The notes below the pieces were generated by a model, which was given only the letters and a program-made list of their open reading frames with translations, ran no database searches and was not told the origin of the DNA. A program made the position numbers and the translations under genes. 43,540 nt of DNA from a virus. How positions within the stretch are numbered: position 1 is the stretch's first letter; every line of letters begins with the position of its first letter. Location of the stretch: IMG/VR virus record IMGVR_UViG_3300036912_000011, positions 1 through 43,540 of that record. The stretch is one strand, 5' to 3'. Shown here in pieces: positions 6,659 through 33,975 of this stretch.

Positions 6659-6662
6659 TAAA

Positions 6663-13081: not shown

Positions 13082-13920
13082 AAGTCTTTCCCCCAAACTT
13101 TAGTGGTGCCAGCAGGAGTACTTGGTTGTTCTCCCGCAAACTTTTGCCACTTAGCTAACTCTACTTCCATCTCAGGAGAGCTTCCAAAAGTAGCCATAAA
13201 CTCCTTTATCTTTGTTACCTTATCTGCTGGCCCCAAAGTAGACAACTGTTGTTTAAGCTCAAGTGAAGCCTGTCTATAGTCTTGGGTTCCTTGGACAGCA
13301 GCTGCTCTTGTATTTGCGTTCTGCCTACCTATCTGTAGTTGCCCCCTTCTATAACTATTCTCAGACCTTATCTCCTTTCCTCGGTTAATCCCCTCTTTCT
13401 TTTTATAAGCAGCCTCAGCTTGCTGATTTTGTATCTGTGCAAGTAGATGCGCTACTGTAAGCGGTTGCATTTGTCCTGCCTGTCTACCCTGTGCAATTTG
13501 AGCAGTATCATTTATCGCAGTCTGTGGGTCTTGTGCTTGACGAACTTGATCAAGGAATGGAGACCTTATTCCCTGTGCTTCTCCAACCCCCCCTCCAAAA
13601 GCAGCAAGGGCGTTTAGGACAGACTTAACAGGGTGTTCCTTAAAGTTCCACCCATACTGATCCCTTTGACCTTGCTGAAGTTTTTCCACCTCTGATTGTG
13701 CACCTTTCCAATTATCCATCTGAGGCTGTTGCGGTAGTTGCTGTTGCTGCGGCAACTGAGGAAGCTGAGCAAAGGGTGAGTTATGCATCATACCACCTGT
13801 GTTAGCAAACTGTTGAATTGCTCCAGAAGAAGGTGCTTCAGGATTAGAAGAAGCGTCAGCCCTCGACGATGCCATTGACCCAACTAACTGCATTATTTGC
13901 TGTAGAATGTTTGGTTCCAT
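13078..13920 (-). CDS. Gln-rich virion protein, putative ejection protein
   Basis: 280 aa. Starts at ATG 13920 behind AAAGGAA. Contains a Gln/Pro tract (LPQQQQLPQQPQ, about residues 58-70), a short hydrophobic Gly/Ala segment (VLNALAAFGGGVGEAQG) and a long Gln/Ala-rich helix with coiled-coil character (150-240). It is translationally coupled to the giant ejection protein gene, which supports a role in the internal core. No named family. Confidence 0.65.
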   Translation of the reverse strand: MEPNILQQIMQLVGSMASSRADASSNPEAPSSGAIQQFANTGGMMHNSPFAQLPQLPQQQQLPQQPQMDNWKGAQSEVEKLQQGQRDQYGWNFKEHPVKSVLNALAAFGGGVGEAQGIRSPFLDQVRQAQDPQTAINDTAQIAQGRQAGQMQPLTVAHLLAQIQNQQAEAAYKKKEGINRGKEIRSENSYRRGQLQIGRQNANTRAAAVQGTQDYRQASLELKQQLSTLGPADKVTKIKEFMATFGSSPEMEVELAKWQKFAGEQPSTPAGTTKVWGKDF

Positions 13921-16418: not shown

Positions 16419-17995
16419 ACTCTTTCCCCTCCTACTTGCAGTACCATTGAGATGTCGGAAAGCATAATGAGGTCTGAAGAGGCAATCTGTAGTTGATACA
16501 TTCTTGCAGTCAGTCGACAGTCAAGCCTACTATCTGAGTCAAGAAATACAGCAGGCTCAAAGTTAATCGGGTCTTCCGCTTTATCTCTACCCCCAAGCCT
16601 CACCTGTGTTGCGCCCCCTAAGCCAAGAATATCAAAGAAAACCCTCGTCACATGACAGCGACGTTGCCACCCTGCTGGCCACAAATCCCCTGTCTGTAGT
16701 AACCCAAGCACAGGAGTCACCCCATCCCCCGAGGTATTAGTTCCCTGTTCATGTACCATCACCTTTGCCGTTCCTCCAACCACAACGAAAGTTCCCTCTT
16801 TACTTTTATCTCTCCAAGTAAGTGAGGTAGCCTTTTCGTCGTTAAAGACCCCCGTATCATCACTAAAGATAGCTGACGTGTCAAGCTCAAACTCTGCCAT
16901 CACAGACATAGGAAAGGGGTCACGTCTACTCCAACAGTCCATTAACCAGTTGTATACAAGAGCCTTATCAAACACTCCTCCACCACTATTGCTTTTGTAG
17001 ATGAAGTAAATCTCAGGATAAATAGGGTGAGCAAAAGAGTAAATACTGTTTGGATGACCGTTGTAAAGGTCACCGAAGAGAAAGTTGTCAACCCTATTCA
17101 CTCCAATTAACTGTGGACTAGTTCCTGTGAACTTGTAAAAACCCTCAGTCCCCAGCCAGTAGAGGGTATTTTGAAAAGAGATAACACTGTAAGGTGCAAA
17201 GCATCCAATATCATCCACAATCCTCTGTACGTTCCAGATTGTAGGAAGCCCGGTGTAAGTGAAAAGGTAAGTTGACTTTAATGTAAACGCTACAAAGGCA
17301 TTTTGTCCAAGAGCAACAAGACCCCTTATTTCTCCATCAAGGTCGAAAACTGAAGCCTCGTTAATGTTAACATTAGGCATCCACACAGTAGCGTCAAAGT
17401 CTGACACTCTTATCCTATATGGAAAAGCTGTTGTTCCCTCAACAATGTTAGCCATTACAAGATGCCCTAAGCTGTTCAAGATGAACTTAGCTCCTGCTGG
17501 CATATTGATGTCAGTACTTAACACAGTGAGAGTAGCAGGAGAGGTGGGGTCAAATACCTGCGGCTTAGTTGCAAGGTTCACCAAGACAAGCTTATTATTG
17601 ATAACCGCTGACTGCCACCTATCTTCATCCGCGCCTGTGTAGCTTGTTGCAATAGACGCAAACACCTTCGTCGTCCTGTCATAAAGGTAAACGTCAGTTT
17701 TATTCGCCACCAAGAACCACCTTGTTCCTGAGTTGTCTTGGAAGTCGAACGCGTAGTTAAGGGGGTTTGCAAAGGTGTTACTACTGTCCTCTGAAAGAGT
17801 TCCCCACCCTCCATACTTTTGTACCCTGTTATCAAGGGTGTGGAAGTTGTTCATCTCCAACCATCCACCCAAAGGCATGTCTACACTGTCAAGGTCTTTA
17901 ATTAACCCAAGCAAAATGCCATTAGGAAACTGTGAGGTGTTCCTACTGGAGTACTCCTTCTGGAGAAGGAGCTTGGGGTAAATGCTAGGAGGCAT
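16415..17995 (-). CDS. Tail tube/nozzle-like protein (beta-propeller type)
   Basis: 526 aa. Contains repeated strand-loop units such as RWQSAVINNKLVLVN, LGHLVMANIVEG, NAFVAFTLKSTYLFTY and NTLYWLGTEGFYKFTG, spaced as in the propeller of podovirus tail nozzle proteins (P22 gp10 / T7 gp12-like). Follows the adaptor and a small fibre-like gene, the expected place. Start and upstream stop share a base (TAATG at 17995). Probably forms the tail tip through which DNA passes. Confidence 0.72.
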   Translation of the reverse strand: MPPSIYPKLLLQKEYSSRNTSQFPNGILLGLIKDLDSVDMPLGGWLEMNNFHTLDNRVQKYGGWGTLSEDSSNTFANPLNYAFDFQDNSGTRWFLVANKTDVYLYDRTTKVFASIATSYTGADEDRWQSAVINNKLVLVNLATKPQVFDPTSPATLTVLSTDINMPAGAKFILNSLGHLVMANIVEGTTAFPYRIRVSDFDATVWMPNVNINEASVFDLDGEIRGLVALGQNAFVAFTLKSTYLFTYTGLPTIWNVQRIVDDIGCFAPYSVISFQNTLYWLGTEGFYKFTGTSPQLIGVNRVDNFLFGDLYNGHPNSIYSFAHPIYPEIYFIYKSNSGGGVFDKALVYNWLMDCWSRRDPFPMSVMAEFELDTSAIFSDDTGVFNDEKATSLTWRDKSKEGTFVVVGGTAKVMVHEQGTNTSGDGVTPVLGLLQTGDLWPAGWQRRCHVTRVFFDILGLGGATQVRLGGRDKAEDPINFEPAVFLDSDSRLDCRLTARMYQLQIASSDLIMLSDISMVLQVGGERV

Positions 17996-18831
17996 TAGTA
18001 AACACCTACAATTCTTACGTTTAACGCGGAGATAGTTGCAGTAAAAGGACCACGTACTTCTTGAACTGTTATTGTAATTGTTCCCCCTGCTTTAATACTA
18101 GCGTCACCAGTTAAATAAAGGTCTTTAGTTCCTGTTGTATGAGCAGAGACATAAGCACTTGCTATAGGAGTAGACCCTATGTTAATAAATATATACACTC
18201 TTGCGGAAGTAAACCCCCCCAGAACAGATACTATCGCCCTTGCGTTTATGATGATATGAATTGTCTGGTAATCATTTGCAGCTAAAACATAAGTGTAAAA
18301 AGGTGTTTCTGTATTAGTTACTGCCTGTGGTGTAGTTGCTGCCCCGTCATAAAAGATTGGCCGTCTATCCGCTTGTAAAGCAGCAGTAAATACTGTAAGC
18401 AGTTGCCAAGCAGTTCCATCATACACCACCTCCACCACTTGTCCTGCCACCAAAGCTCCTGCGTTCAGAGCAGCAGACAAAAAGGTTATCGCAACCGCAC
18501 TTCCTACATTTGTACTATTAGAGGTAATCTGCAGAGTTGTTGCTCCTGTATTCGTTGTCCCCACAAGGAACTTTACAAAAAGTCCTGCGTGCAATCCCAC
18601 CGTCACCAAGCGACTCGCGTTTCCCACCTCTACCACCACAGCATTCGCTGTTCCTGTAGCCACTCCATAAAAGTGTTTCCCATCACAGGCATGTTGTAGC
18701 CTTGTCCACCGAAGGAAGAGCTCTTGTAAATACCTCCACCATCCTGGAGCAGCACTTTCAAGCTCACCATCAGTAGGGGCGGTTACGGGAGACGACAAAC
18801 TACACGGGTCAATAGTACCTGGAGCTGGCAT
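17995..18831 (-). CDS. Tail fibre/appendage-like protein
   Basis: 278 aa. The segment from about residue 58 to 125 (ATGTANAVVVEVGN, AGLFVKFLVGTTNTGATTLQ) is the recurrent phage tail-fibre module built on short beta strands around TNTGATTL. The rest is also beta-rich (DGAATTPQAVTNTETPFYTYV). Located between adaptor and nozzle genes. Likely a virion appendage; the receptor is unknown. Confidence 0.65.
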   Translation of the reverse strand: MPAPGTIDPCSLSSPVTAPTDGELESAAPGWWRYLQELFLRWTRLQHACDGKHFYGVATGTANAVVVEVGNASRLVTVGLHAGLFVKFLVGTTNTGATTLQITSNSTNVGSAVAITFLSAALNAGALVAGQVVEVVYDGTAWQLLTVFTAALQADRRPIFYDGAATTPQAVTNTETPFYTYVLAANDYQTIHIIINARAIVSVLGGFTSARVYIFINIGSTPIASAYVSAHTTGTKDLYLTGDASIKAGGTITITVQEVRGPFTATISALNVRIVGVY

Positions 18832-19959: not shown

Positions 19960-21180
19960 TTACGTTGACGGCGTAGCACCAACCAAGTTAGTGATGAGGA
20001 GGTGAGCTCCATCCTTCGCGCTTGTGATGTCGTTGCCAGTTCCAACATGGTGGACTTCCAAACCGCTTTCGGTCAGGAACTCATCCATGCGCTCGTCAGC
20101 ATCATTCTGCTGACGGTTCATCAACTTCTGTGTATCTCGTCCTGTCACATGGCGATACACCAAGCCATGTACATCAAGGATGAGGGCGTTGTTGCGCCAC
20201 ACAGGATGCTGAGTGAACAGGGGATGTGTACGAAGGTAGAGTGTCCCAAAGGGTGTATACCACCGAATGAGGCTCATACCAAAGGACTCATCACCAGCTA
20301 CTGTTTCCATTCGTCCCACCTTTTCTGAAAGGCGGTTGATGGCGTTTAGTGCTCCACTTCCAATCAACACAAGCTTCTCTTGTGCTGTGTTAAGGCAGAC
20401 TCGGAAGACCAGCTCAAACCATCGGCTGAGCTCATCCCCTGTGACAATGCCAGCACCATCAGCAGGAGACACCTTATACCCCGCAGGCAAGAACTGCACT
20501 AAGCCCTGTGTAGTGCGCTTAGTCTTACCCGTGGACGGGTCAGCGTACTCAGCCATCTTCGACTGAATAAACGCCCACTCCATTTGAGTCATGTGGAACT
20601 CAAGTGCCTCACGCAGCTTCTCAGTATACGGCCCACTGCGGTCGTACTTGAGTGCTGTCTTCATCACAGTTCCCGTGAGCTCCATAGGAGAACGGAAAAT
20701 CTGCGTGATGTTAGTCACCGGGGTCGGGTCAATGCTCATCACTTGAGGAGCATTACCACCTTCTGCGTTGATGTTGCCAATAACTCTAATCGGGTCACCA
20801 GCGCCAATAGACGCTACTGCTGTTCCCCAATTCCCACGAGTCACTGTCAGCACAAGCCCTGTGCTGTCAACTGCAGTAACTTCCATTTGTTCACCAGTGA
20901 GTTCATTCTCAATCTGATGCCCAACACGGAAGTTCTTATCCGCCACACTCAGCGTACTCACAGCATTGTTGTAGGATGCTGTAAGCGCACTTCGCAGTAA
21001 CGGCGTTACCTTCTCATACCAGAAGAAATGTGGGTCATTCGTCTCTTCTGGTTTCGTCAATGACAGGAAAGCTGTCAGCGGGGCCGCTCCATTCGGAGAG
21101 GCATACAAAATACCCCGCCGATAATTCTTGAAGCGGTCAGCGTCGAAGCTTACCGTGTCTCTTAGTCCAAGGATTGCCAT
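19960..21180 (-). CDS. Major capsid protein (SU10/DUF5309-like)
   Basis: 406 aa. The start region (FKNYRRGILY, then PLTAFLSLTKPEETNDPHFF at about 36-55) and a later VMKTALKYDRSGPYTEKLREALEFH block match the SU10-type major capsid group with HK97 fold. An insertion-like beta segment (about 95-140) precedes the helix spine. Follows the scaffold gene, and the 72-base gap between them holds a 21-bp palindrome. ATG 21180 follows AAGGAGAGG. Confidence 0.82.
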   Translation of the reverse strand: MAILGLRDTVSFDADRFKNYRRGILYASPNGAAPLTAFLSLTKPEETNDPHFFWYEKVTPLLRSALTASYNNAVSTLSVADKNFRVGHQIENELTGEQMEVTAVDSTGLVLTVTRGNWGTAVASIGAGDPIRVIGNINAEGGNAPQVMSIDPTPVTNITQIFRSPMELTGTVMKTALKYDRSGPYTEKLREALEFHMTQMEWAFIQSKMAEYADPSTGKTKRTTQGLVQFLPAGYKVSPADGAGIVTGDELSRWFELVFRVCLNTAQEKLVLIGSGALNAINRLSEKVGRMETVAGDESFGMSLIRWYTPFGTLYLRTHPLFTQHPVWRNNALILDVHGLVYRHVTGRDTQKLMNRQQNDADERMDEFLTESGLEVHHVGTGNDITSAKDGAHLLITNLVGATPST

Positions 21181-22090: not shown

Positions 22091-22331
22091 GTTTTTGTTC
22101 CTTCTTTGCCCCTAATTTCAGTTCGTCAATTAAACCCTGAATAGGGTCTTCCTCTAAGGCAGAGGCACGGCCTTTAGAATACTCTTGCTTCATAATATCC
22201 ATGTAGTGCATCACAGGTAGCAGGCACATATCTATCTCCTGCTTTGCCCTTCGCTTTTGAAAGTCACGAAGTTGTGTGTACTGTTCAGTCTTCTGAAAGT
22301 CTATAAGGAGCTGGCGAACATCAACACTCAT
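22083..22331 (-). CDS. Small helical protein between portal and scaffold
   Basis: 82 aa, charged and helical (YTQLRDFQKRRAKQEIDMCL). Start overlaps the portal stop (ATGA at 22328) and its end overlaps the scaffold start. Unassigned; position suggests a head assembly accessory role. Confidence 0.6.
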   Translation of the reverse strand: MSVDVRQLLIDFQKTEQYTQLRDFQKRRAKQEIDMCLLPVMHYMDIMKQEYSKGRASALEEDPIQGLIDELKLGAKKEQKHE

Positions 22332-24319
22332 TGTATTCTCCCCCCACCACCAGCAATCCCACCATCAATCTGCTCAAGGTTACCCCTTTGTACTTGGTCC
22401 TCAACATGCTCCTCAGGCATTACCTTCGCCTCTACTCCCCTAGGCTGCCCATTAGCCCCATTCAATTTTCCACTCATCGCCATCACGATTGCAAGCTGTT
22501 GGTCAGGAGGCATTGGTGGCTGAGCGAAGTCAGAAGTATTCTTGAACCCATAGTTCTGCAGCATCTGTACTATCATCTGTCCAGGATTCAACCCCCACAT
22601 CATAGCAATCTGTGGTTGAGGAAGGATGGCCATTACAAACTCTTGCAGTTTACTCGCCATCATTACCTTATCTTGGGGAGTGGTGGTGTCAACCATAGCA
22701 ATGTTGAACATCCCCTGCAAATCCTCCGGACTTACATTCACCCTTCCTGCAAGCATCTCCTGTGGATTGAGGCCCATCGAGAGTCCCATACCGAACATAA
22801 GCTTAAGGCTTCTCTGCATAGTCATGAACTGCTGAGTATTCTGTATCATCTGCTTACCCACCTGCTTAAATCCTTGCTCCCAAAGCAGTTGTGCAAGTAA
22901 ATTAACTCTTGACTGTCCACCCCTCAGCGTTGACAAGCTTTCCGTCGCTGTACGTGAGGTAGGAGTAGGCATCCCTGACACAGGGTCATTTACTCCTGTA
23001 GTTCTCATTATAAAGTTAAGTGCTGCTGCAGCATCAGCAACATGACCTTGAGTCACATCCACTACCTGAAACTGCTTCATTGCCTGCTCAATCCGCCCCC
23101 TTGCACCAGCCTTCAATCGTATCATTGGACTACGGCTTTCAATATCCTCAGTTTCCACTAAGGAAGGATCAACGATAAACTGATTGTTGATTGTCCTTCT
23201 CACACTGTTGATGTGAGTATTAAGTGACCAGCTAATAAGGTCTTGCAGTCCGTCAATTACCTGCGCCATTCCATCATTCACAAGTTCATGCTGGTCAGGA
23301 GCGTACTCAATCACACTTACAGGAAACTGTCCATGTTCGTAAGTGCAAGGTTCTGCAGCAACAATCCTTGCCTCGTTCGCCATTACTATCTTCCAAATCT
23401 GCATCCCATCGAACTCAGCAAGTTCATAGTCCTTCGGCACCAACTTCACATAAAGGTAGTCGAGGATAACCATATCCCCACCCATCAGTGTGGTAGGGCC
23501 ACGAGTAGTCCGGATTTCATCCATCCTTGACTCTCTCTCCCTATCAGTAAAGCGTCCCATAAGCGTGGTTGGTTGCTTAGGAATTCCCTTTACATTCATG
23601 AACTCTCCATTTTTCTCAGCATTCAGCATCTCGTTGTATGAGCGCTTATACTGATGAAAAACATACTGAGCCCTTTGAATATCCCCTACACTCACCGCAG
23701 GGTCAAAGCGAAAGGTGTATGGGTCGCCAAGTTCAAACTTCGCCCCTTCATACCCAATTACAGGCACTGTCTCTTTCCCAAGTAACCCACCAAGGTCACC
23801 AAGCATGGGGACTTGTCTGTTCTTCGTGATGAAGCACAGCCTCTTTTCATAGGTAGTATGCAGCACTCCAAACCCATACTTCAAACAGTCCTGTACCCAC
23901 TGGTACATCTGCAACTTCCACCCTGCCATCTCCATTTGATAGTTGAGCTCCAACTCCATTAGCTTACTTGAACGGTGAAACTGTGGCTGAGTGCCCTCAA
24001 GCTCGAAGAAAGGAGTCCGACTAAAAATAGTCATAAGCACAGACAGCGTGGTCTGTATCTGCGCCCAAGTTACTGGGTAGACTATCTTAATCGGTTCTCC
24101 TCTCTCCGAGGCTTTTTGGTCATCTTCATCAGGCACACGGAAGCAGTGGTACATCCTATCCGCCCTCTTCATCCGCTCCACGTCCTGTTCAAGTGCCTCC
24201 TCTCCCTCCATCTTCAACCTCTTGACGAAGTCAAGAAGCTTCTGATGAGGTTCATTAATGCTGTCACCGATTGTGAAGCGGTTACGAACGTCGGAGACTA
24301 TGGAGTTGAAGTCAAACAT
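22328..24319 (-). CDS. Portal protein
   Basis: 663 aa, the right size for a podovirus portal. Visible portal-like features: an N-terminal helical region, TLSVLMTIFSRTPFFELEG near residue 90, YGFGVLHTTYEKR near 148, DQHELVNDGMAQVIDGLQDL near 350 followed by a long helix, and a Gln/Met-rich helical C-terminal crown (450-640). Followed in order by scaffold, capsid and adaptor, which supports the call. It forms the dodecameric vertex for packaging and ejection. Confidence 0.82.
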   Translation of the reverse strand: MFDFNSIVSDVRNRFTIGDSINEPHQKLLDFVKRLKMEGEEALEQDVERMKRADRMYHCFRVPDEDDQKASERGEPIKIVYPVTWAQIQTTLSVLMTIFSRTPFFELEGTQPQFHRSSKLMELELNYQMEMAGWKLQMYQWVQDCLKYGFGVLHTTYEKRLCFITKNRQVPMLGDLGGLLGKETVPVIGYEGAKFELGDPYTFRFDPAVSVGDIQRAQYVFHQYKRSYNEMLNAEKNGEFMNVKGIPKQPTTLMGRFTDRERESRMDEIRTTRGPTTLMGGDMVILDYLYVKLVPKDYELAEFDGMQIWKIVMANEARIVAAEPCTYEHGQFPVSVIEYAPDQHELVNDGMAQVIDGLQDLISWSLNTHINSVRRTINNQFIVDPSLVETEDIESRSPMIRLKAGARGRIEQAMKQFQVVDVTQGHVADAAAALNFIMRTTGVNDPVSGMPTPTSRTATESLSTLRGGQSRVNLLAQLLWEQGFKQVGKQMIQNTQQFMTMQRSLKLMFGMGLSMGLNPQEMLAGRVNVSPEDLQGMFNIAMVDTTTPQDKVMMASKLQEFVMAILPQPQIAMMWGLNPGQMIVQMLQNYGFKNTSDFAQPPMPPDQQLAIVMAMSGKLNGANGQPRGVEAKVMPEEHVEDQVQRGNLEQIDGGIAGGGGRIQ

Positions 24320-24797: not shown

Positions 24798-25130
24798 TTA
24801 CTTTACCTGTACCCAAGAAGCTGCTGCGTTTGAACCGATGTAAGTACCAATCACAATGTTTGTGTACACTGCGTTAGTACTCGCACAGTTTGTCAAGCAA
24901 ACTGAGTTGTAGTTAGTGTAGGTTGTGGCGTGGTTCAGATTAAAAGCATTAGTCTGAACATAGATAGCCCCATTATTAGTGGGAATTATCCACAACGAAC
25001 CAGGAGCTGCCCAACCAGGATTGCCAATTTGTACAAACGTTTGCTGTACTGTTGGCCTTCCTTGTCCTTTCACCTTAGCAACAACCAAAAGGGTTGCTAC
25101 CATCATAACTGCTACTATTACTTTTTTCAT
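24798..25130 (-). CDS. Secreted Thr-Asn-rich 110-aa protein
   Basis: N-terminal signal peptide (MKKVIVAVMMVATLLVVAKVKG, cleavage likely near residue 23). The mature part has a GNPGWAAPGSLWIIPTNNG segment and many TN pairs (NYNSVCLTNCASTNAVYTN), with two Cys that could pair. Preceded by AAGGAAAG and a 21-bp hairpin. Resembles the other exported TN-rich proteins of this cassette. Function unknown; surface-exposed or lysis-associated roles are possible. Confidence 0.65.
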   Translation of the reverse strand: MKKVIVAVMMVATLLVVAKVKGQGRPTVQQTFVQIGNPGWAAPGSLWIIPTNNGAIYVQTNAFNLNHATTYTNYNSVCLTNCASTNAVYTNIVIGTYIGSNAAASWVQVK

Positions 25131-25147
25131 ACTTTCCTTTTGTTTAT

Positions 25148-25168
25148 CCTTTCCATTTATTGGAAAGG
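25148..25168. repeat. 21-bp palindromic hairpin upstream of secreted protein gene
   Basis: Perfect 8-bp arms CCTTTCCA and TGGAAAGG around TTTAT. Located in the leader of the gene at 24798-25130 on the minus strand. A member of the dispersed palindrome family. Confidence 0.75.
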
Positions 25169-25172
25169 AAAT

Positions 25173-25367
25173 TTATAGGGCTCCTAATACTGAAGTTGAT
25201 GGAGGGTTAATCCCATAAGCTTCGTATGCCTTTGCCTTAGCAAAGATGTCATCCCAATCTGCTTGTGTTGGGTCTTTCTTCACAAACAAGGCAAGCAGTG
25301 CCTGAGCAGCAGGTACGCCATACTTCAAGGCAAACTGAATGATAAGGGCAATCGTTGCAGCATCCAT
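25173..25367 (-). CDS. Small protein with one hydrophobic segment
   Basis: About 64 aa. ATG 25367 overlaps the upstream stop (TGATG) behind AAGGA; GTG 25370 is also possible. A hydrophobic, Ala/Leu-rich segment (IALIIQFALKYGVPAAQALLALFV) is followed by a charged tail. It could be a small holin-like or membrane protein in the putative lysis cluster; no family is certain. Confidence 0.6.
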   Translation of the reverse strand: MDAATIALIIQFALKYGVPAAQALLALFVKKDPTQADWDDIFAKAKAYEAYGINPPSTSVLGAL

Positions 25368-25741
25368 CACTTTGTTCCTTTCACTTCAGCAGCTTTATCA
25401 GGAGGAAGAAACTGCATAATAAGGCCTGTCACATCTGCACTCGCCGCAGTCACCGCACTGATGGAAGCGGTTAGCCCCGCTTGGTCAGGCACAGTGGCGT
25501 GTTTATACTCAATCACCACTTGTCGAAGTGTTTGCATTGAGACATAGTACTTGTTGTAGGCAGAGTGTACCACATCAACCTGTGCTGCTGTGGCCTTTCC
25601 AGAGTTAACGTAATCTGCCCATGCTTGCATTGCAGTATCCACGATGGTGGTGACTGTACCTATGGTGTGATAAGCGTTGTTCTCAAGGCTCGCACACCCC
25701 ATCACCACCAACAGAGGGATAATGAGTAGAAGCTTTTTCAT
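25367..25741 (-). CDS. Lipoprotein, possible spanin component
   Basis: 124 aa with a clear lipoprotein signal: MKKLLLIIPLLVVMGCAS, lipobox Cys16. The mature part is helical. Start overlaps the holin-like gene (ATGA at 25738). A phage lipoprotein next to small membrane proteins suggests the outer-membrane spanin role, which would also imply a Gram-negative host. It is longer than typical Rz1-like proteins, so this is an inference from position. Confidence 0.62.
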   Translation of the reverse strand: MKKLLLIIPLLVVMGCASLENNAYHTIGTVTTIVDTAMQAWADYVNSGKATAAQVDVVHSAYNKYYVSMQTLRQVVIEYKHATVPDQAGLTASISAVTAASADVTGLIMQFLPPDKAAEVKGTK

Positions 25742-25947
25742 TTACTTTCCGGCTTCATTGAGGAGTCTTTGATATCTTTAGTATCAACTGCATTATGTCC
25801 AACACCAGCAAGGCCAACTGCTCCAAGCAAGGCTAGCGTAACCCGAAGCCAGTCAGGAATCCCAGGAATAAGGGCAGCAGCAACACCTAAACCACCAAGC
25901 CAACCAAAGATAGCCGTGGGGCTTTGAAAGAATTCTTTCCATGTCAT
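25738..25947 (-). CDS. Holin-like 69-aa membrane protein
   Basis: ATG 25947 is chosen for its AAGGAAAT site; the longer frame to 26028 would run through a hairpin. The sequence has two hydrophobic segments (FGWLGGLGVAAALIPG and RVTLALLGAVGLAGVG) separated by a short turn with Pro, and a charged C-terminus. This is typical of small class II holins, though not proof. It overlaps the lipoprotein gene. Confidence 0.6.
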   Translation of the reverse strand: MTWKEFFQSPTAIFGWLGGLGVAAALIPGIPDWLRVTLALLGAVGLAGVGHNAVDTKDIKDSSMKPESK

Positions 25948-25974
25948 AATATAATTTCCTTTTTTTGTGCTTGA

Positions 25975-26018
25975 GGAACGGCCAGCCATTACCCTCTGGC
26001 CGTTCCCTAAGCTTTTTT
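25975..26018 (+). terminator. Rho-independent terminator-like hairpin facing rightward
   Basis: Perfect 11-bp stem GGAACGGCCAG / CTGGCCGTTCC (25975-25985, 25996-26006) with a 10-base loop, then six T on the plus strand (26013-26018). On the minus strand, where the genes lie, no T run follows. It therefore faces against the operon and would stop antisense or invading rightward transcription. Confidence 0.6.
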
Positions 26019-26020
26019 CC

Positions 26021-26464
26021 TTACACAACCGGAGTTACCGGCGGCGTGACAGCAATAGCACCAGACTTCGCCACAAGTGCTTGACTCGAGGCTTGAATAG
26101 CATCAAGCGCCGCTTGGTCTGCCGCACTCAGCGTACCCGGTGAGTTCTGCAGTTGCGTAATCAAGGCATCCAACGCAGCAATACCAGTGACGATTCCGTC
26201 AAGGGTGCTGCTAATGGCGTCAAGACTAGCCTGCTCAGTAGCCGCCCAATCAGTGATTTGGCTCATAATACGTTCTTCCATCTTTTGCAAGTCTTGCTTT
26301 GTTACTGCTTGAGGGTCAGGCTTGCAATGTTCCTCCAGCAGTTGTTTCAATCCTTCCATCATAAGATGGAGGTCGAAATGGATACAAGCTAACAGCTCAC
26401 GCTCACTTAGCAAATGCCAAAAAGGGCGTGGTTTACTTGGGTCGAAGTTTGCATTATCACTCAT
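26021..26464 (-). CDS. Coiled-coil 147-aa protein
   Basis: Helical protein with a long Leu/Ile/Ala heptad-like region (SLDAISSTLDGIVTGIAALD, ITQLQNSPGTLSAADQAALD, about residues 80-135) and a Pro-Val tail. The N-terminal part has WHLLSERELLACIHFDLHLM. Such segments recur in phage structural or accessory proteins. AAAAGGAAAA precedes ATG 26464. Role unknown. Confidence 0.6.
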   Translation of the reverse strand: MSDNANFDPSKPRPFWHLLSERELLACIHFDLHLMMEGLKQLLEEHCKPDPQAVTKQDLQKMEERIMSQITDWAATEQASLDAISSTLDGIVTGIAALDALITQLQNSPGTLSAADQAALDAIQASSQALVAKSGAIAVTPPVTPVV

Positions 26465-26487
26465 GTTTTCCTTTTCTTTCAGTGGTG

Positions 26488-26844
26488 TTACTTCTGCGGT
26501 CGTTTCTGAAGTTCTTTAATGTCCATTTTAGATTCTTTAACGTCAGCCTCGATTCGACCTAAGGCTTCGGTGATGCTCTTTTCCAACACTGATTCCTTGA
26601 TCTCAATCGTGCCAATCCGAGCACGACTATCAGCAATCATTTCTGAACGAGCCGTGCCTCCACTGTCAAGGTGGCCTATTTTATTGTTCAAATCCGCTAC
26701 GTCCTTTTCTAGTGATGATACTCGAACATACATCAAGCCAACAGCTACTGCTGCAGCTACTGCCATTTTACCGAGGTCAAATAACCATGACGGCACGGAG
26801 AAAGTTTGTCTTTCATTTTCACCATTTCTTTTATCTTTTACCAT
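26488..26844 (-). CDS. Membrane-anchored coiled-coil protein (possible inner-membrane spanin or holin partner)
   Basis: 118 aa: polar start, one membrane segment (LFDLGKMAVAAAVAVGLMYV, residues 21-40), then about 75 residues of charged coiled coil (SSLEKDVADLNNKIGHLD...). This architecture is that of an inner-membrane spanin or similar envelope protein, and the lipoprotein at 25367 would be a plausible partner. Position in the membrane-gene cluster supports a lysis role, by inference. Confidence 0.6.
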   Translation of the reverse strand: MVKDKRNGENERQTFSVPSWLFDLGKMAVAAAVAVGLMYVRVSSLEKDVADLNNKIGHLDSGGTARSEMIADSRARIGTIEIKESVLEKSITEALGRIEADVKESKMDIKELQKRPQK

Positions 26845-27105
26845 TTATACTACCCTTTTCAGCCCTGACCTATACAAAGGTCTCTTTTTCTCTATTACAA
26901 ACAGCACGACATTAGTCGGCGCTGCTACCCGTTTTGCTGCAACTTTAATCAAGGCGCGACTTGAATGGTCCTTTATACTTAACTCACATATAGCCTTTTG
27001 CAGTCTATTACGATACGCAATTTCCTCAACTAGCGGCAACTGGCAAGCTGTCTCTGCCAACCTGAAAATCCGTTGTCGCCAGTAGTCTATACGCGCTGAG
27101 GTCAT
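26845..27105 (-). CDS. Hypothetical 86-aa basic protein
   Basis: Arg/Lys-rich helical protein (YWRQRIFRLAETACQLP). Start shares bases with the upstream stop (TAATG at 27105). No family recognised; no signal peptide. Confidence 0.55.
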   Translation of the reverse strand: MTSARIDYWRQRIFRLAETACQLPLVEEIAYRNRLQKAICELSIKDHSSRALIKVAAKRVAAPTNVVLFVIEKKRPLYRSGLKRVV

Positions 27106-27656
27106 TAAAATGCTACTCCTTGAACGAACAGACGTGACTTAGTTGGTGTCACATAGTTGGTGCTGCCCAACATTAGCCACGTCGTGCCGTTGGACAGGGT
27201 ATCTACAAATCGCCAGCCAAGTCTGAATGTTCCACTGGTTAGCACACTGCGTGTGAATCCATCTACCTGCAACAGCGTGACGAGGTTCGTGACTATAACT
27301 GTAATAGTATTGGTGATTACCACACCAGCTGCCTCAGTAGTACCTGTTGCTATATTACTATTCAATGACCAGACGCTTCCTGTGCTGCCTCGAACTGTGT
27401 AAATGTAGGGCGTGCTATTTGATAGTCCTTTATCTTGAAAACTGTTCGTCAACGGCAGTATTGCAATCGTCGTCAAGCTGCCATTCACAGAGCGTAGCAA
27501 CATGTTAGAGGTGTAAGCAATAGGATTTGTCCATGTCAACTGCAACACTGCTCCCTGCACTTGGCAAGGCGCCAACAACATCAGCAGCAGGAGCACCACA
27601 ACGCCAACGCACACGGTCAAGTCGATGCTGCCGAGGATGAGTTTGGCGGCGCTCAT
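27105..27656 (-). CDS. Exported or membrane-anchored TN-containing 183-aa protein
   Basis: N-terminal hydrophobic segment (VCVGVVVLLLLMLLAP, about 15-30) acts as signal or anchor. The mature region resembles a fibronectin-III-like start (VLQLTWTNPIAYTSNMLLRS, STPYIYTVRGSTGSV) and then a TN-rich stretch (VVITNTITVIVTNLV). It belongs with the neighbouring exported VTN proteins. ATG 27656 overlaps the stop of a 19-codon ORF. Function unknown. Confidence 0.6.
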   Translation of the reverse strand: MSAAKLILGSIDLTVCVGVVVLLLLMLLAPCQVQGAVLQLTWTNPIAYTSNMLLRSVNGSLTTIAILPLTNSFQDKGLSNSTPYIYTVRGSTGSVWSLNSNIATGTTEAAGVVITNTITVIVTNLVTLLQVDGFTRSVLTSGTFRLGWRFVDTLSNGTTWLMLGSTNYVTPTKSRLFVQGVAF

Positions 27657-27712
27657 GGATTGGATTCCTGTTGCAAGTGCGCCTTGTACGTCGCCAGCAA
27701 CGTCAGCCTCAT
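27653..27712 (-). CDS. Tiny coupling ORF, 19 aa
   Basis: ATG 27712 overlaps the stop of the VTN-repeat gene (ATGA), and its TGA overlaps the next ATG at 27656 (ATGA). It encodes MRLTLLATYKAHLQQESNP. It may only pass ribosomes from one gene to the next, or it may be the remains of a deleted gene. Confidence 0.4.
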   Translation of the reverse strand: MRLTLLATYKAHLQQESNP

Positions 27713-29235
27713 AATCCCCTCACAATTAAGCGGAAATTGTTGGTTGCTATATTGATGACCGCCCCGAAGTTATTAACAGCGGTGGCGTTAATCCGAACAG
27801 TCACATTGGTTATCAGGCCCGGCGCATTGGTCGATGAGCCGCGACTGCGGAATGAAAACCACCTGTTGTTTTCGTTTTGGTAGGTCAGGCTTTCCTGTCG
27901 ATATTGAAATATCGGGCCGGCGGTCTGGATGATGACTGTGCCGGCACAGGAACTTCCGCCGTTGTTGGCGTTGGTCGCGCAGACATTGCCCAAGAACATG
28001 CCCGGTCCCGGCCCATTTAACGCCACAGATTCGGTTGTGGGAAAGTTCGGCGGAGTAACATAGCCGTAGCTCCCACTGAAGTTATAGTTTGTTAAATACG
28101 AATCGTTATTGACCGACAAGAAACCAACCGGGTAACTTGAGACTGCCCCGTTCGTTGCCGCCACAAGCTGATACTCCACCCAAACCGTGCTGCAAGGAGT
28201 ACTCCACGATGCCGATGCCGAGCCGACCGGACCGGTAATGGTCATATTGCTTAACAACGGCACAGAGATTGAGGTTGCCGCGTTGGTGCCTTCGTTGTGC
28301 GACCAGACGCCACCGCTGAATGTGAAGGTGTTGCTGCCGAGCGGCCACGGTTGCGGCACAGTCAGATAATTCGTGCCGACATTGGCCGGGAGTTGGGAGA
28401 ACACAAGTGGCTGTGTGTTGGTCATGCCGGCCAGAGTATCCGCTGCCCGACTGACGAGCACGCCGTTGGTGTAGCACGTGATTCCGCCAAACTGGTTTGT
28501 CACGCAGAGGTATCCTTGCGAAGTCGAGTTTGTGTAAGCAACAGATAGCACCGTGTTGCTGCCAAGCCAGTTCGTCGCCGTACCAACGCTATCTACAGTA
28601 TTTGTGAAGTAGTTATTTACTGTGTTAGTAACATAAGTTGTGGAGTTTGAAATAAGAATAGTGTTATTTACTATGTTAGTAATAGCCACTGAGTTAGTGA
28701 CTACCATAGTAGTTTGATTAGTTACAACCACTGTGTTTTGATTAGTCACAAACAAAGAAACTTGATTAGTAACTCCTATGTTAATTACATTTGTCACTTG
28801 CAACGAAACAGTATTTGTCATCTCCACCAAATTACTAACATTTACTAGGTTAGTAATACTTGTAGAGTTAGTGACAAACAAAGAAACTTGGTTTGTAATC
28901 CCTAAATTAACTGTATTAGTTACAATTAAAGAAACTGTATTAGTCACAGTTATATAGTTTGTGGTGGAGATAGAAATAGAAACACTTGTCCCTGTTCCCC
29001 CACTGCCTCCCCCACTAATCCCACCACCAAGAATTGGCCAAGAGGGGGTTACTCCTCCGTGATAGTTAGAAAGAGCATTTGTTACAGTGTATCCTGAGAT
29101 GTAAACATTTGTCTTTTGCCCACTGCTAGTTAAGACATTAGTGAAGAGTCTCCCGGGGAATGTGGAGTAGTCCACGTTGATGTCTTGGGCAAACACCAAA
29201 GAAGGAAAAAGGAAAAGTATAAGCCACTTACTCAA
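27709..29235 (-). CDS. Exported VTN-repeat fibre-like protein (508 aa)
   Basis: Signal peptide MSKWLILFLFPSLVFAQ, a Gly-rich hinge (GGGISGGGSGGTG, about 71-83), then residues 93-214 as a repeat array of about seven residues built on VTN (VSLFVTN, VNLGITN, VSLQVTN). The C-terminal half (220-508) is beta-rich and ends in a conserved-looking sandwich. The repeat part is AT-rich, while the C-terminal part is clearly richer in G+C. The repeats would form an extended stalk and the C-terminus a head domain. A signal peptide is unusual for a tail fibre; the protein may instead be displayed on the infected cell. Confidence 0.68.
   Translation of the reverse strand: MSKWLILFLFPSLVFAQDINVDYSTFPGRLFTNVLTSSGQKTNVYISGYTVTNALSNYHGGVTPSWPILGGGISGGGSGGTGTSVSISISTTNYITVTNTVSLIVTNTVNLGITNQVSLFVTNSTSITNLVNVSNLVEMTNTVSLQVTNVINIGVTNQVSLFVTNQNTVVVTNQTTMVVTNSVAITNIVNNTILISNSTTYVTNTVNNYFTNTVDSVGTATNWLGSNTVLSVAYTNSTSQGYLCVTNQFGGITCYTNGVLVSRAADTLAGMTNTQPLVFSQLPANVGTNYLTVPQPWPLGSNTFTFSGGVWSHNEGTNAATSISVPLLSNMTITGPVGSASASWSTPCSTVWVEYQLVAATNGAVSSYPVGFLSVNNDSYLTNYNFSGSYGYVTPPNFPTTESVALNGPGPGMFLGNVCATNANNGGSSCAGTVIIQTAGPIFQYRQESLTYQNENNRWFSFRSRGSSTNAPGLITNVTVRINATAVNNFGAVINIATNNFRLIVRGL
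28594..28959 (-). repeat. VTN repeat array in fibre-like gene
   Basis: Protein-level tandem repeats of xVTNxxx with nucleotide-level duplication: a block containing ACAAACAAAGAAACTTG occurs near 28748 and again near 28876. This suggests recent unit duplication or slippage, hence possible length variation between isolates. Confidence 0.75.
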
Positions 29236-30257
29236 GGTGTAGAAACTCCCCGAATAATCCCGTTTGTGATGTAGAGGGTAGAAAAGGTAGAGGGTAAGAC
29301 AGTTAAGACGCTTAGGTTTGTACTCACCCCACTAGCGATGACTTGCCAGCCGCCGTTCGTGCCGTCCACGCTGACGAGTGCACAGCCAAAGCAGGGCACG
29401 TTGGTCGCTGTGATGGAGCGGATTGGTGCGCCTCCCAACTGGTCGATGTTGGTCAGATTATCGGCCGTAAAGATTTGCGCATTATTGATGGTCAGCTCGT
29501 CGTCGACCCCGAAGATCTCGTTGGTAAAGACGGTGACGCCGTTGTCCGAGACGAAAATCAAGTGCCTTGAGTCCGACCCTGTCAAGCCACCAGTTATCTC
29601 TCCTAAAACGATATTGTTTCTGACGTCACTAAAGTCAGAAACGTAGGCAAGCTGTTGAGTAACTACATCACCCACTTCATTAGTAGTAACCCAACTTGGA
29701 CGCCAATCGATAAGCAACCCCACACCATTAGTTGCTCCAATTACAACTCCACCAGTGTTTGTAAGTAGTATAGAACTACAGAATATTGAGCCCGTGGTGG
29801 CGATGAAACTGAGGTTTGTTATGGCGTAGCCTCCAGCGTCGACAGTGTTTGTCCAAGGATTACTGAGGCTGCTGCCGCTAATAGCTTCCCAATTCCCAGC
29901 TTGGTTAAGGAAAAGGTTCGTATTAGGAGAGCCTACATTATGCACCAAACCAGTATTACTACCAGAATAAAGGTTAGTAATTCCAGGAGCACCGTTTGTT
30001 CCGTTAGCTCCACTAGTTCCATTAGTTCCAGAGGGGCCCTGAATTCCTTGGATTCCCTGTGCACCTATAGCTCCTGTTGGCCCAACCGCACCTAAGCCAA
30101 CTCTACGAACTGCTCCAGATAAAGATAGACCGTTAGCGTCAAAAAAGTTGGTGTAGGCGCTGGGCAAAACATGGGTGGTTCTGTCTACCTGCAGGTTGTC
30201 ATTGGTTGCCGCTAGCACACTAGTACAAAAGGCAAAGAAGAAAAGTATCTTTTTCAT
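29232..30257 (-). CDS. Exported collagen-like fibre protein (341 aa)
   Basis: Signal peptide MKKILFFFAFCTSVLAA. A G-x-y collagen-like stretch from about residue 58 to 93 (GPTGAIGAQGIQGIQGPSG and GANGTNGAPG) is followed by beta-rich TN-containing domains. The stretch near 29340-29580 is visibly G+C-rich against its surroundings. It overlaps the VTN-repeat gene by ATGA, so both exported fibres are made together. Likely trimeric. Whether it is a virion fibre or a cell-surface protein is open. Confidence 0.68.
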   Translation of the reverse strand: MKKILFFFAFCTSVLAATNDNLQVDRTTHVLPSAYTNFFDANGLSLSGAVRRVGLGAVGPTGAIGAQGIQGIQGPSGTNGTSGANGTNGAPGITNLYSGSNTGLVHNVGSPNTNLFLNQAGNWEAISGSSLSNPWTNTVDAGGYAITNLSFIATTGSIFCSSILLTNTGGVVIGATNGVGLLIDWRPSWVTTNEVGDVVTQQLAYVSDFSDVRNNIVLGEITGGLTGSDSRHLIFVSDNGVTVFTNEIFGVDDELTINNAQIFTADNLTNIDQLGGAPIRSITATNVPCFGCALVSVDGTNGGWQVIASGVSTNLSVLTVLPSTFSTLYITNGIIRGVSTP

Positions 30258-30499
30258 TATACATCCACCACAGAGTTAGTGCCATCATTATTCACAATAA
30301 ACTTCTTATGCCCATCAGGGGACAGTATTCCATCTCCTGGGCTAGGAGCCCCACCAATCACCGCTACCCAACCAAGGACAGTGTACACATACACCGCTCC
30401 ATCTTGCATCACCCAAAGTGCTCCACACTCTACCTCTCCAGGAGAGCTGTCTTGGTAATATGTATTAGGATGAGGATTTTGTGTTGCAGCTAAGCTCAT
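30257..30499 (-). CDS. Small 80-aa protein with W-module (tail fibre adaptor-like)
   Basis: Carries the module DSSPGEVECGALWV...VLGWVAVIGG, which is shared with the next two fibre genes, then a short tail ending NNDGTNSVVDV. ATGA overlaps both neighbours' ends. It probably mediates attachment or folding of the collagen-like fibres. Confidence 0.6.
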   Translation of the reverse strand: MSLAATQNPHPNTYYQDSSPGEVECGALWVMQDGAVYVYTVLGWVAVIGGAPSPGDGILSPDGHKKFIVNNDGTNSVVDV

Positions 30500-30882
30500 T
30501 TACTTATCGTCCTTCCAGGAGCCCCTTGCACCCCTTGAATTCCTTGCTTACCAGTATACCCAAGTTCCCCTCTTTCCCCCTTGTCGCCCTTTGGTCCAGC
30601 AACCCCTGCTTCCCCCGCAACACCCTTTTCTCCCTTTACTCCTTGTTCTCCTTGTAATCCCTGCGCACCTGTGTCACCAGCCATTCCTCTTTCTCCCTTC
30701 TCTCCCTTCTCACCTTTCTCTCCCCTAACTCCTTGCGGACCAACAGGACCAACTTCCCCACCACCCACTGCTACCCAACCAAAGGGAGTGGATACATGGA
30801 ACTTGCCGTGAGTGGTTACCCAAAGAGTGCCGTCTTGCCACTTGCCTGGGTCACTATCTTGAACTAGGATTTGTGTTTGCAT
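30496..30882 (-). CDS. Collagen-like protein with W-module (128 aa)
   Basis: N-terminal module (QDSDPGKWQDGTLWV, PFGWVAVGGG, residues 8-43) and then about 80 residues of G-x-y repeats rich in GEKGEKG and GPKGDKG. Phage collagen-like proteins form trimeric stalks. No signal peptide, in contrast with the exported collagen-like protein at 29232. Likely a virion fibre part. Confidence 0.72.
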   Translation of the reverse strand: MQTQILVQDSDPGKWQDGTLWVTTHGKFHVSTPFGWVAVGGGEVGPVGPQGVRGEKGEKGEKGERGMAGDTGAQGLQGEQGVKGEKGVAGEAGVAGPKGDKGERGELGYTGKQGIQGVQGAPGRTISK

Positions 30883-30885: not shown

Positions 30886-31599
30886 CTAAAAGACTCCTAC
30901 AACCCAATCCGAAGCAGGATCAAAGGTTGCGTTATGGTTTCCTGTTGCGTCAGCGATTGACAATCCAGAGCCCTCATCACAATGCCAAAGAGCAATAGTG
31001 TTGGCGTCTAGTTGATTACATTTTGAAGGAGTAAAGCTCGTGGTATATCGAACTATATTTGAAATTCTAAACTCATCTAAATGAACCTCATCTCCACCAA
31101 GACCAAGGTAAAGATTAGACAGGTCTGCTGCAGGAATTGGCACACCAACAGCAGCAAAAACTGTATCTAAAGCTCCATCTATCCAAAGCTTTCCATAAAC
31201 GCCATCCCAAGTAAAGGCAACATGATGAAAGTTTCCATCGGCTAAAAGTCTTCCAGAACTAAGAGTTGAAACATCACCACTAACACCAAAAACACAATAA
31301 ACACTAACCACACCACCAGAAATACCAAGCCGATATCCACTTGCAGGAGAACCACCTACACGACAGTAGAACCAGTTATTGTTTCCATTACCAATGTTCT
31401 TTACCCAACACTCAAGGGTTCCAACAGAAGGAAAGAAATCGGAGCTAAAAGGTGTGGAAGAATTGTTTAGGCTACTGTTAATTCCAAACCTACCACAAGA
31501 TATACAACAGCAGGCTCCCATAGGACTTCCACCCACACTTTTTTTAAGTGGTAATCCTAACACATTATCCTTTTGAGGAACGTAAGGAGGTACGCTCAT
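30886..31599 (-). CDS. LamG/concanavalin-like domain protein
   Basis: 237 aa from ATG 31599, which overlaps the upstream stop (ATGA). Most of the sequence is a LamG-like jelly roll: [19 protein letters not shown], then [20 protein letters not shown], then [19 protein letters not shown] and [10 protein letters not shown]. Such domains bind glycans or proteins. A Cys cluster ([12 protein letters not shown], near residue 30) precedes it. Located in the collagen-fibre cluster, so it is probably a receptor-binding tip or host-surface binder. Confidence 0.75.
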
Positions 31600-32195
31600 G
31601 CTGGACAATCCACAAAGGTAGTTACTGTTGAGTCACCTGACACCTGTTTGGTTTCCTTCAAGATGCCTGATGTAGGATCATAATTCACATCCATCACCGC
31701 GTCAATAGTTCCTGTGTCACCAGCAGGCCCCTGCGGCCCTGTTGCCCCTTGCGGACCCGTAGCACCATCAGCTCCACTTGGGCCAGTAGCTCCTTGCACT
31801 CCTGCATTACCTTGTGGCCCCGCTGGGCCTGTTGCACCGTCAGCACCTGCAGGCCCTTGTGCCCCCGTACCTCCAGTAAGTCCCAAAACAGAACCTTGCA
31901 GTACCCACACCCCGCTCACCTGCCAATACACATTCCAAGTAGTGTTGTCAATGTAAAGGTCACCATCATTGTAGGTTGCCACTGGTGCACCAGCAGCTAC
32001 ATAAATCCTATTCCCTGTCCCCCCACCACCACCAGAAATCACAATCCAACTACCAAACCAAATCCTCAGTTCAGAGATGGTTGGTCTAAACCAAAATGCC
32101 CCAAATACTGAGTCCCCCGGATTTGCCTCTTGCACAAAGACAATCTGGTCCCCATGCTGAGCAGACGCGAGTGCATTAACTCTTGAATCACTCAT
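31596..32195 (-). CDS. Collagen-like tail fibre protein with two W-modules (199 aa)
   Basis: ATG 32195 overlaps the upstream stop (ATGA). Two related modules come first ([14 protein letters not shown]...[12 protein letters not shown] and [19 protein letters not shown]), then G-x-y repeats ([13 protein letters not shown], residues 115-165), then a short beta C-terminus. It fits a tail-fibre stalk. It is coupled to the LamG protein gene downstream, which may provide the tip. Confidence 0.72.
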
Positions 32196-32431
32196 GCCCA
32201 AGCACTCCCATTCCACACCCTCATCACATGCGCCATGTAGTCCCAAGCAACCATACCCTCAGTGGGAAGACGGATTGCAGCAACGTCAGGCAATGGGTGA
32301 GCCTTACCTGCTTCAGTTTGATTAAATGTCATCCATCTCTTAAACTCTTCCTCAAATTGCTTCTGCCTTTCATCCTTAACAGGTGCCTTAAGTACAGCAA
32401 AGTTAAACCCTGCGAATGCTTGGTGACTCAT
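32192..32431 (-). CDS. Small 79-aa protein after terminase
   Basis: Charged N-terminal half and a C-terminal [18 protein letters not shown], which resembles the Trp-ending short domains of tail-fibre adaptor proteins. Coupled by ATGA to terminase and to the fibre gene. No clear family. Confidence 0.55.
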
Positions 32432-33975
32432 ATTGCAGCTAAGTCCTTCAGCTTAAACGGTTTACTCGGCGTGCGAAGGTCAACATACTCAGTCTCAAGA
32501 AGGATAAGACGATACATATTCTCCATCATATGGTCGTCTTTGTCCTTGGGCTTTTCCTTAGCATTGCGGTCATTCCCATACTTCCACTCATCCCAAGTAT
32601 AGTTTTGTATCTCAAAGATAGTACGAGTGCAGTTCTCACAAATGAAAAGGTTGCGCGCCTTAAATGCCTCTCGCGTTGCCGTTATCCCCGCTTCTTTCCT
32701 CTTGCTTGCCTTGTCAAGGAAAATCCCTTCGTCTGCAAAAGCGTCCGCCCACTTTCTCCCATCCTCTGGGTCTTCATCAAACGCAAGGGGGTCGGCAATC
32801 CTATTGAGTACAGGGAGCTGTTTAATAACCTTAACCCCCGCTTCAAGTTCAACATATTGCTCCTTCACCTGCCACAGTTTACAGAGGTCGGGGAGAAAGG
32901 TGTCACTGAAAATCTCATCAAAGATAAACCGCCTACCATCCTTTGCGGTGGCCATGAATAGGATAGCGTGAGGCTGACGGGGATGGGGGTCAAGGGCTAC
33001 ATCCACTACACAGTTGTTGTAAATCCACTCCCTACTCAGTTCTTTAACAAGGTGACCTTCCTTGCCATTACTTAACTTGGGCTCAAACTCCTTATAAATA
33101 AGGCCCTCGAGGTGGATCCAAAGTCCCTTCGCGCGTGCCTTATACTCATCAACCGTCAGTTTCCCCTTGTAGTCTTCCCATCCCTCCCTACTGATGTGAG
33201 GGTTTTGATTCTCCACCACGTTAATAACTTCAATCTTCCCATTAGAAGTGGGCGCACGGTCAACAATCTCATTCTTAATCCACGCCTCTCGTAGGGGGGT
33301 GAGAGTAAAGATCTCGTATCCCCCTCTGTCAACAAGACCACGACTTACAGCGACACGAAGCTTGCGGTCTGGTGGTTCATCATAGTGCGCCATGTCATGC
33401 TGCTTACCTTCAAAGGACTGAGGATCGTTTATGAAGGACTTTTGAGTATCAACAATTATTTGACTCCCGAAGGTCTTAAGGTAGTATGAGCAAATGTTAC
33501 CCATATTATTCTTCTCAACTTTGTCAATCGCCCCTGCAGGGATGAACTGCTTAAACTTTCCTGCAGTCTCATCCTTTCCTTGAGTCCAAATATCATCTGC
33601 AACGTCCCAATCACTAACTATCAAAATGACCTTGGTAGGGGGATGAAGGGGGGTCTTTACAAACTCAGGTAGGTGCTCATAATTAGCAAGCAACTCTTCA
33701 ACAGGGAGGGACTTAAGTTCATCGGGGAGTAGGTAAGGCCGGAAGCCAAGCCAAAAGCAAATGTCCTCCACCCCTCCTGCGGTACTCTTTCCAATCCTAT
33801 TCGGTCCAATGAGGGCTCGTACCTTCGCTTTGCTTTCATGAAAGGCACGTTGTTCATCACAGTAAGGTTGGTAGAAGTAAAGGCGGTGCTTTTGCATCCA
33901 ATCAAGTTTGCGCTTCTTGATTGCTAACGACTGAGCTTTAAGACTGATAAGAGTATCAGCTTGCGCCAGTAACAT
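32428..33975 (-). CDS. terL: Terminase large subunit
   Basis: 515 aa. ATPase: Walker A GPNRIGKST (57-65), motor strand VILIVSDWD near 123, Walker B MAHYDEPPD near 197. Nuclease: acidic strand VVDVALDPH near 327, FIFDEIF near 355, and later acidic residues (AFDEDPEDG). It packages DNA through the portal and cuts the concatemer. Overlaps the small subunit gene by 20 bases and is coupled to the fibre cluster by ATGA. Placing fibre genes between terminase and portal is unusual, but the gene itself looks intact. Confidence 0.85.
   Translation of the reverse strand: MLLAQADTLISLKAQSLAIKKRKLDWMQKHRLYFYQPYCDEQRAFHESKAKVRALIGPNRIGKSTAGGVEDICFWLGFRPYLLPDELKSLPVEELLANYEHLPEFVKTPLHPPTKVILIVSDWDVADDIWTQGKDETAGKFKQFIPAGAIDKVEKNNMGNICSYYLKTFGSQIIVDTQKSFINDPQSFEGKQHDMAHYDEPPDRKLRVAVSRGLVDRGGYEIFTLTPLREAWIKNEIVDRAPTSNGKIEVINVVENQNPHISREGWEDYKGKLTVDEYKARAKGLWIHLEGLIYKEFEPKLSNGKEGHLVKELSREWIYNNCVVDVALDPHPRQPHAILFMATAKDGRRFIFDEIFSDTFLPDLCKLWQVKEQYVELEAGVKVIKQLPVLNRIADPLAFDEDPEDGRKWADAFADEGIFLDKASKRKEAGITATREAFKARNLFICENCTRTIFEIQNYTWDEWKYGNDRNAKEKPKDKDDHMMENMYRLILLETEYVDLRTPSKPFKLKDLAAI

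Follow-up and report, generated by a model that had tools for sequence, protein, structure and literature searches.

Recurrent predicted export signals on proteins of the tail-fibre block in uncultivated podovirus-like phages

The DNA analysed was IMG/VR virus record IMGVR_UViG_3300036912_000011, positions 1 to 43,540 (this whole stretch of 43,540 nucleotides (nt) is called the window). An earlier sequence-only reading had marked a cluster of exported, Thr-Asn-rich proteins in a late operon at 24798-30257, and the coordinates and frames of all five proteins were correct. The five are encoded on the minus strand between the genes for the terminase large subunit (TerL) and the portal, and are named here by their lower coordinate. 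Three carry a clean predicted signal peptide (SP), a fourth a signal peptide or an anchor, and the fifth is a lipoprotein. Predicted signals of this kind recur on fibre-type proteins in the same block of related phages.

29232..30257, minus strand: predicted exported collagen-like fibre protein, 341 amino acids; SP residues 1-16 (nt 30210-30257), collagen residues 56-92
27709..29235, minus strand: predicted exported VTN-repeat fibre-like protein, 508 amino acids; SP residues 1-16 (nt 29188-29235)
27105..27656, minus strand: small protein with long hydrophobic N-terminus, 183 amino acids; signal peptide or anchor, residues ~15-35 (nt 27552-27656)
25367..25741, minus strand: lipoprotein, 124 amino acids; MKKLLLIIPLLVVMGC, lipobox VMGC
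24798..25130, minus strand: small signal-peptide protein, 110 amino acids; cleavage after residue 18 or 22, then NPG..GxLW module

Clean Sec/signal peptidase I (SPase-I) signals, with a positive n-region, a hydrophobic h-region and an A-X-A-type site, were predicted heuristically in 29232 (MKKILFFFAFCTSVLA/A, the slash marking the cleavage site), 27709 (SKWLILFLFPSLVFA/Q) and 24798 (MKKVIVAVMMVATLLVVA..KG/Q). Within-protein shuffles scored as SP in ~3% of cases each for 29232 and 27709 and in ~12% for 24798. The N-terminus of 27105 has a long hydrophobic segment before VQG/A (core 3.73 KD) and no net charge in the n-region; its assignment as a signal peptide or anchor is less certain, so that three of the four proteins earlier said to have signal peptides or anchors carry clean signals. 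AlphaFold models of 27105 and 29232 made without relatives were unusable (pLDDT 38 and 31); the single-sequence AF2 model of 27105 placed a helix at 13-28, with low confidence elsewhere. None of the remaining plausible window genes scored as an SP protein or lipoprotein, leftover calls falling on spurious antisense open reading frames (ORFs).

Collagen-like and VTN-repeat proteins had both been proposed for the cluster. Pfam Collagen was matched above cut-off (27.7 bits) by 29232 alone, and 27709 is the VTN-repeat protein. A match of 29232 to the PHROG tail fiber family phrog_5073 (7.7e-8) was confined to the collagen stretch. No PHROG was matched by 27709, 27105 or 24798, no Pfam family by 27709, and nothing in the isolated-phage collection by 27709 or 29232. 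No virion adaptor domain was recognised with PHROG or Pfam in the four signal-bearing proteins. The NPG..GxLW module behind the signal of 24798 is also present in the signal-less 30257, 30496 and 31596, at alignment scores that 0 to 0.4% of shuffles attained. The TTG start of 27709 overlaps the stop of the preceding gene and has GGGGAG upstream; within the gene there is a 79-nt imperfect direct repeat (28742-28820 / 28868-28946).

Relatives were collected as IMG/VR loci (L numbers) by a terminase profile (80) and a portal profile (80), the contigs partly overlapping. In some lineages the portal gene directly follows the terminase gene; in others the two are separated by 3-9 kb that hold fibre-like and lysis-like genes. 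SP proteins were found in this TerL-portal block in L099 (774, 599 and 128 amino acids), L102 (487), L111 (655), L132 (814 and 251), L154 (489 and 242), L257 (410, 208 and 429), L270 (941 and 243) and L284 (183). Fibre-like proteins without signals stand at the same place in L003, L004, L005, L095, L107, L114, L144, L277 and L280. Enrichment was counted with a strict rule at the longest ORF start, for ORFs of at least 150 amino acids, in the 24 relatives with a TerL-portal gene block. Strict SPs were present in 18/83 block ORFs versus 2/153 ORFs outside the block in these loci (p 2e-7); the 83 block ORFs after residue shuffling gave a mean of 0.93 SPs and a maximum of 5 in 60 replicates. Chance hydrophobic N-termini were ruled out by these shuffles and by the block position. 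In relatives without the block, 3/508 ORFs had strict SPs (L113, L286 and L297), and these were again long fibre-type proteins, by a tail PHROG match in L113, by position after the nozzle-like gene in L286 and by LamG in L297. Among collagen-containing ORFs of other, unrelated contigs, an SP was found in 1/96 (L045).

Mature parts of the SP proteins gave tail fiber or tail PHROG matches in L154, L270, L113 and L045, an EPS depolymerase match in L111 and a virion structural protein match in L132. The TerL tree requires six switches between the SP state and others, and well-supported branches make at least four of them unavoidable, which means repeated gain or loss of the trait; the window lies on a long branch and its placement is unsure. 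A dual start yielding a cytosolic form was rejected, as no recurrent internal start with a Shine-Dalgarno sequence was present in the 21 proteins checked, weak candidates being confined to window 27105 and L257. Homology of 27105 to the small SP proteins of L099, L102 and L297 through an fn3 domain was also unsupported; the window protein scored no better than shuffles and is fn3-like by eye only.

PEP-CTERM is a motif of exosortase-sorted surface proteins. In L284 a protein with an N-terminal signal and a C-terminal PEP-CTERM (4982-5533) is encoded between terminase and portal, and its sequence fits surface targeting. Beside the exported proteins in the terminase-portal block of L284 there are also glycosyltransferase-like and methyltransferase-like genes, identified by eye (6440-9338). 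Another viral contig, L268, encodes a signal plus PEP-CTERM protein (5532-6185), in surroundings that look doubtful. Window proteins gave no PEP-CTERM match in Pfam, nor in a dedicated search whose control genomes also gave none.

L045 belongs to a different phage lineage and has a run of consecutive signal-bearing proteins (7230-13228) after its internal virion proteins. The first of these is a collagen-like tail fibre in which the signal stands directly before an epsilon15/phiV10-type tailspike adaptor. This adaptor is 36-41% identical to the N-terminal regions of the epsilon15/phiV10 tailspikes (E down to 3e-21), and the mature start, A/TVANV, aligns with epsilon15 MTVST. Many tail-fibre PHROGs also align with the mature part, in several cases starting at profile position 3. 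Comparison fibres without signals start right at the adaptor in epsilon15, zth2-2, ctQRb9, Pelagibacter HTVC028P and Vibrio MZH0603. No second adaptor copy was found in the 34 kb L045 record, which may be an incomplete contig. Judged from L045, a genuine tail fibre or spike can carry a signal, and the statement that fibres lack signals was too strong, because the only adaptor-bearing fibre or spike found in this phage has a signal peptide.

The description of the window proteins as Thr-Asn-rich held. TN pairs were found at 3-5x expectation in the signal proteins (observed/expected 17/3.7 in 29232, 31/9.2 in 27709, 5/1.6 in 27105 and 6/1.3 in 24798), and their count was 0 in the neighbouring signal-less fibre-like 30886 and 31596. 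Across the block, window included, TN:NT was 190:73 in SP fibre-like proteins versus 132:117 in signal-less fibre-like proteins (p 7e-6, residues inside one protein not being independent counts), and 143:59 in SP proteins with the window excluded. SN was the next most enriched pair in SP proteins. This TN-over-NT bias suggests that the SP proteins may differ in compartment or in origin and history.

The window also encodes fibre-like or similarly placed proteins without signals:

30257..30499, minus strand: signal-less short fibre-like protein; SxPG..GxLW module in common with 24798
30496..30882, minus strand: signal-less collagen-like fibre protein, from its sequence; same GxLW module
30886..31608, minus strand: signal-less LamG/concanavalin-like lectin protein, virion fibre candidate; Pfam Laminin_G_3 7.7e-11, TN 0
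31596..32246, minus strand: signal-less collagen-like fibre protein, virion fibre candidate; GxLW module, TN 0
17995..18831, minus strand: signal-less protein; from its place just before the nozzle-like gene, possibly a virion fibre or collar protein

Relatives have a signal-less protein at the position of 17995. The version in the L257 phage is conserved in L270, L284, L261, L272, L277 and L260, and no sequence homology was found between it and 17995.

The lipoprotein 25367, confirmed as such by its lipobox, had been counted as a member of the exported cluster. It does lie in the same region, but groups with lysis-like genes, here and in relatives, and two of its neighbours are lysis candidates:

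26488..26844, minus strand: Rz-like inner-membrane spanin candidate, transmembrane segment and coiled coil; phrog_89 E 0.0015
25738..26028, minus strand: small membrane protein, holin candidate, from direct reading of the sequence; probable internal ATG start MTWKEFF

Homologues of 25367 in L099, L102, L270 and L284 (24-32% identity) keep the lipobox cysteine and adjoin lysis-like genes or genes for small membrane proteins. More distant lipoproteins are encoded in L257 and L101, the latter having the lipoprotein at the same place without signal-bearing fibres. Family matches of 25367 were weak, to an Rz-like spanin (phrog_4349, E 0.029) and, in the signal region only, to Cor (phrog_1119, E 0.12); 25738 gave no informative match in PHROG or Pfam. 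From these features 25367 looks like part of a lysis block with 26488 and 25738, and not of the display set or the fibres. A lipoprotein together with a transmembrane/coiled-coil protein resembles the two-component layout of Rz/Rz1 spanins, but the window genes are not nested and 25367 is longer than a typical Rz1.

The ends of the window (1-150 and 43391-43540) repeat over 150 bases at 99.3% identity with one mismatch, so the window is a near-complete podovirus-like genome of ~43.4 kb; it probably represents the whole genome, either terminally repeated or in a circularly permuted form. On the minus strand the structural genes run in the order TerS, TerL, fibre-like block (32246-27105), lysis-like block including 24798 (26844-24798) and portal, followed by scaffold, major capsid protein (19960-21180), connector and nozzle-like genes and a 1660-residue protein. 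The borders of the block are:

32428..33975, minus strand: terminase large subunit TerL, upper border; phrog_5653 1.6e-9
22328..24319, minus strand: portal, lower border; phrog_332 5.5e-19, phrog_1216 portal 1.3e-14

In the search for a host, no tRNA genes were found in the window, and the terminase was found only in a single contig (4.1 kb) from a metagenome-assembled genome of 'Candidatus Lithacetigena'; this contig lacks a fibre block and is uninformative. Just one near-identical contig was available (L002/L006/L086/L087/L252); its fibre block is identical throughout, so a substitution test was impossible. Of the 20 differences from L002, 18 fall within 255 bases of TerL (32840-33094), 17 of them silent, which suggests local recombination or an assembly mixture. 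By Pfam, a single ORF at 1913-3520 unites a uracil-DNA-glycosylase domain with two parts of a family A DNA polymerase, its exonuclease domain and the beginning of its polymerase domain.

The signals, their recurrence in the same block, the fibre-type mature parts and the Thr-Asn signature are seen in the sequences; that the proteins are in fact exported, where they end up and that they mask receptors is inferred. The exported nature of proteins in the fibre block, as put forward by the sequence-only reading, is favoured by the signals and the comparative data from relatives; because of these, Sec export is the best reading and well supported, and the proteins are very probably exported. The proteins 29232, 27709, 24798 and probably 27105 would be members of a tail-fibre/adhesin block expressed with the late operon. 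The host Sec system would carry them over the inner membrane, signal peptidase I would cut them, and they would fold in the periplasm or farther out. Their most likely targets, at these sites and in the lysate, would be the same envelope or extracellular polymers to which phage fibres attach. They would probably serve to mask or occupy receptors of the dying cell, of its debris and perhaps of neighbours, so that progeny would not be lost by re-adsorption and other phages would be kept off. The signal-less 31596, 30886, 30496, 30257 and 17995 would serve the virion. Display on the infected cell, as the sequence-only reading proposed, is plausible. Given export, a masking or surface role has about an even chance; the complete explanation, in which exported fibre-block adhesins mask receptors, is held tentatively and falls a little short of that. 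Several points weigh against it. The signal-peptide calls came from a home-made n/h/c-region heuristic and not from SignalP, and the fibre-type match of 29232 rests on repetitive collagen, that of some others on short stretches. Cysteine was not raised in SP proteins (p 0.4), so there was no sign of adaptation to disulphide formation, and disulphide-driven export was rejected. The window signal proteins sit in the late operon, whereas T5 Llp is made early. In L045 a virion-attachment domain lies behind the signal and has no second copy, which fits virion attachment better than a free decoy.

Extracytoplasmic loading, for which the L045 adaptor argues in that phage, would mean that the exported proteins are the virion's own fibres, folded and held in the periplasm and joining virions only when lysis mixes the compartments. 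In vitro, P22 tailspikes and T4 long fibres are able to join particles, which makes extracytoplasmic assembly possible, and the signal on L045's only adaptor-bearing fibre or spike makes attachment after lysis a live alternative. SP proteins moreover occupy positions where relatives have signal-less fibres, the SP protein of L113 matches a tail PHROG, and that of L257 resembles, after its cleavage site, the start of the L003 fibre (ADxxI..xP; 1.1% of shuffles reach the score). This last likeness is weak, however, L045 is possibly incomplete, the proteins would be diluted at lysis, and the window and several SP relatives retain signal-less fibre-like proteins. For the window, masking is slightly favoured over loading, because its four proteins have no recognisable virion adaptor and signal-less candidates exist; loading is possible but rather unlikely. 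It is doubtful that some tailed phages use Sec to export their virion fibres and finish their particles extracytoplasmically, at lysis or later, the signal-peptide fibre blocks of the phages compared here marking a lifestyle that arose more than once. An origin as accessory morons, host-derived surface proteins that were acquired by recombination and alter the cell surface or matrix without receptor masking, would agree with mature parts that are mostly non-homologous between phages, with recurring host-type modules (LamG, beta-helix, PEP-CTERM) and with a Thr-Asn enrichment that could be a host secretome trait. It is nevertheless improbable, as several SP proteins are recognisable phage tail proteins and the fibre-block position is strongly preferred. 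Finally, the hydrophobic N-termini might be no Sec signals at all and instead provide structure or anchoring in fibres that are assembled in the cytoplasm. Phage proteins can carry such N-termini, and 27105 is atypical in having no net positive n-region; but n-, h- and c-regions with A-X-A-type sites appear time and again in front of mature domains that are unrelated, in strong excess over shuffles, the L045 signal is placed exactly before the adaptor domain, and no recurrent internal start would remove the signal, all of which makes this very improbable.

The usual assumption is that the cytoplasm is where tail fibres are produced and attached. The open-access literature yielded no account of tail fibres with signal peptides, nor of fibre proteins at a location outside the cytoplasm, which is weak evidence of absence, and the isolated verrucophage P8625 was reported without them. 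Fibres and Sec signals are known kinds; their combination and its recurrence are new. Export signals on fibre-module proteins recur in a widespread uncultivated podovirus-like group and in at least one unrelated phage. If masking is true, these would form a class of exported receptor-binding proteins, a masking tool built from fibres instead of small lipoproteins; if loading is true, they would mark an unrecognised virion-completion step outside the cytoplasm. Either reading would change the annotation of receptor-binding proteins, for which a signal peptide normally argues against a virion role.

PblA and PblB of streptococcal phage SM1 are comparable as phage tail proteins found at the bacterial surface; they are said to arrive there through lysis without Sec signals, and the host is Gram-positive. 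T5 Llp, a phage protein directed to the envelope, acts on the receptor, and adsorption to lysed fragments is limited by proteins of this kind (PMC9586334), a precedent for the proposed masking. Llp and Cor of T1-related phages resemble the present proteins in being phage-encoded and sent to the envelope, but are small lipoproteins, whereas here large SPase-I fibre-type proteins are encoded in a late structural block. Lambda Lom is an exported protein whose gene is flanked by those for the tail spike and the tail fibre (PMC12309495), a similar setting, but Lom is a beta-barrel outer-membrane protein and not a fibre. With podovirus fibres and tailspikes (epsilon15/phiV10 type, collagen-like, LamG) the present proteins have in common the gene block, low-charge repetitive sequence, collagen repeats and PHROG tail fiber matches; the related fibres compared here begin at the adaptor and have no signal, whereas in the present proteins the fibre part stands behind an N-terminal Sec signal.

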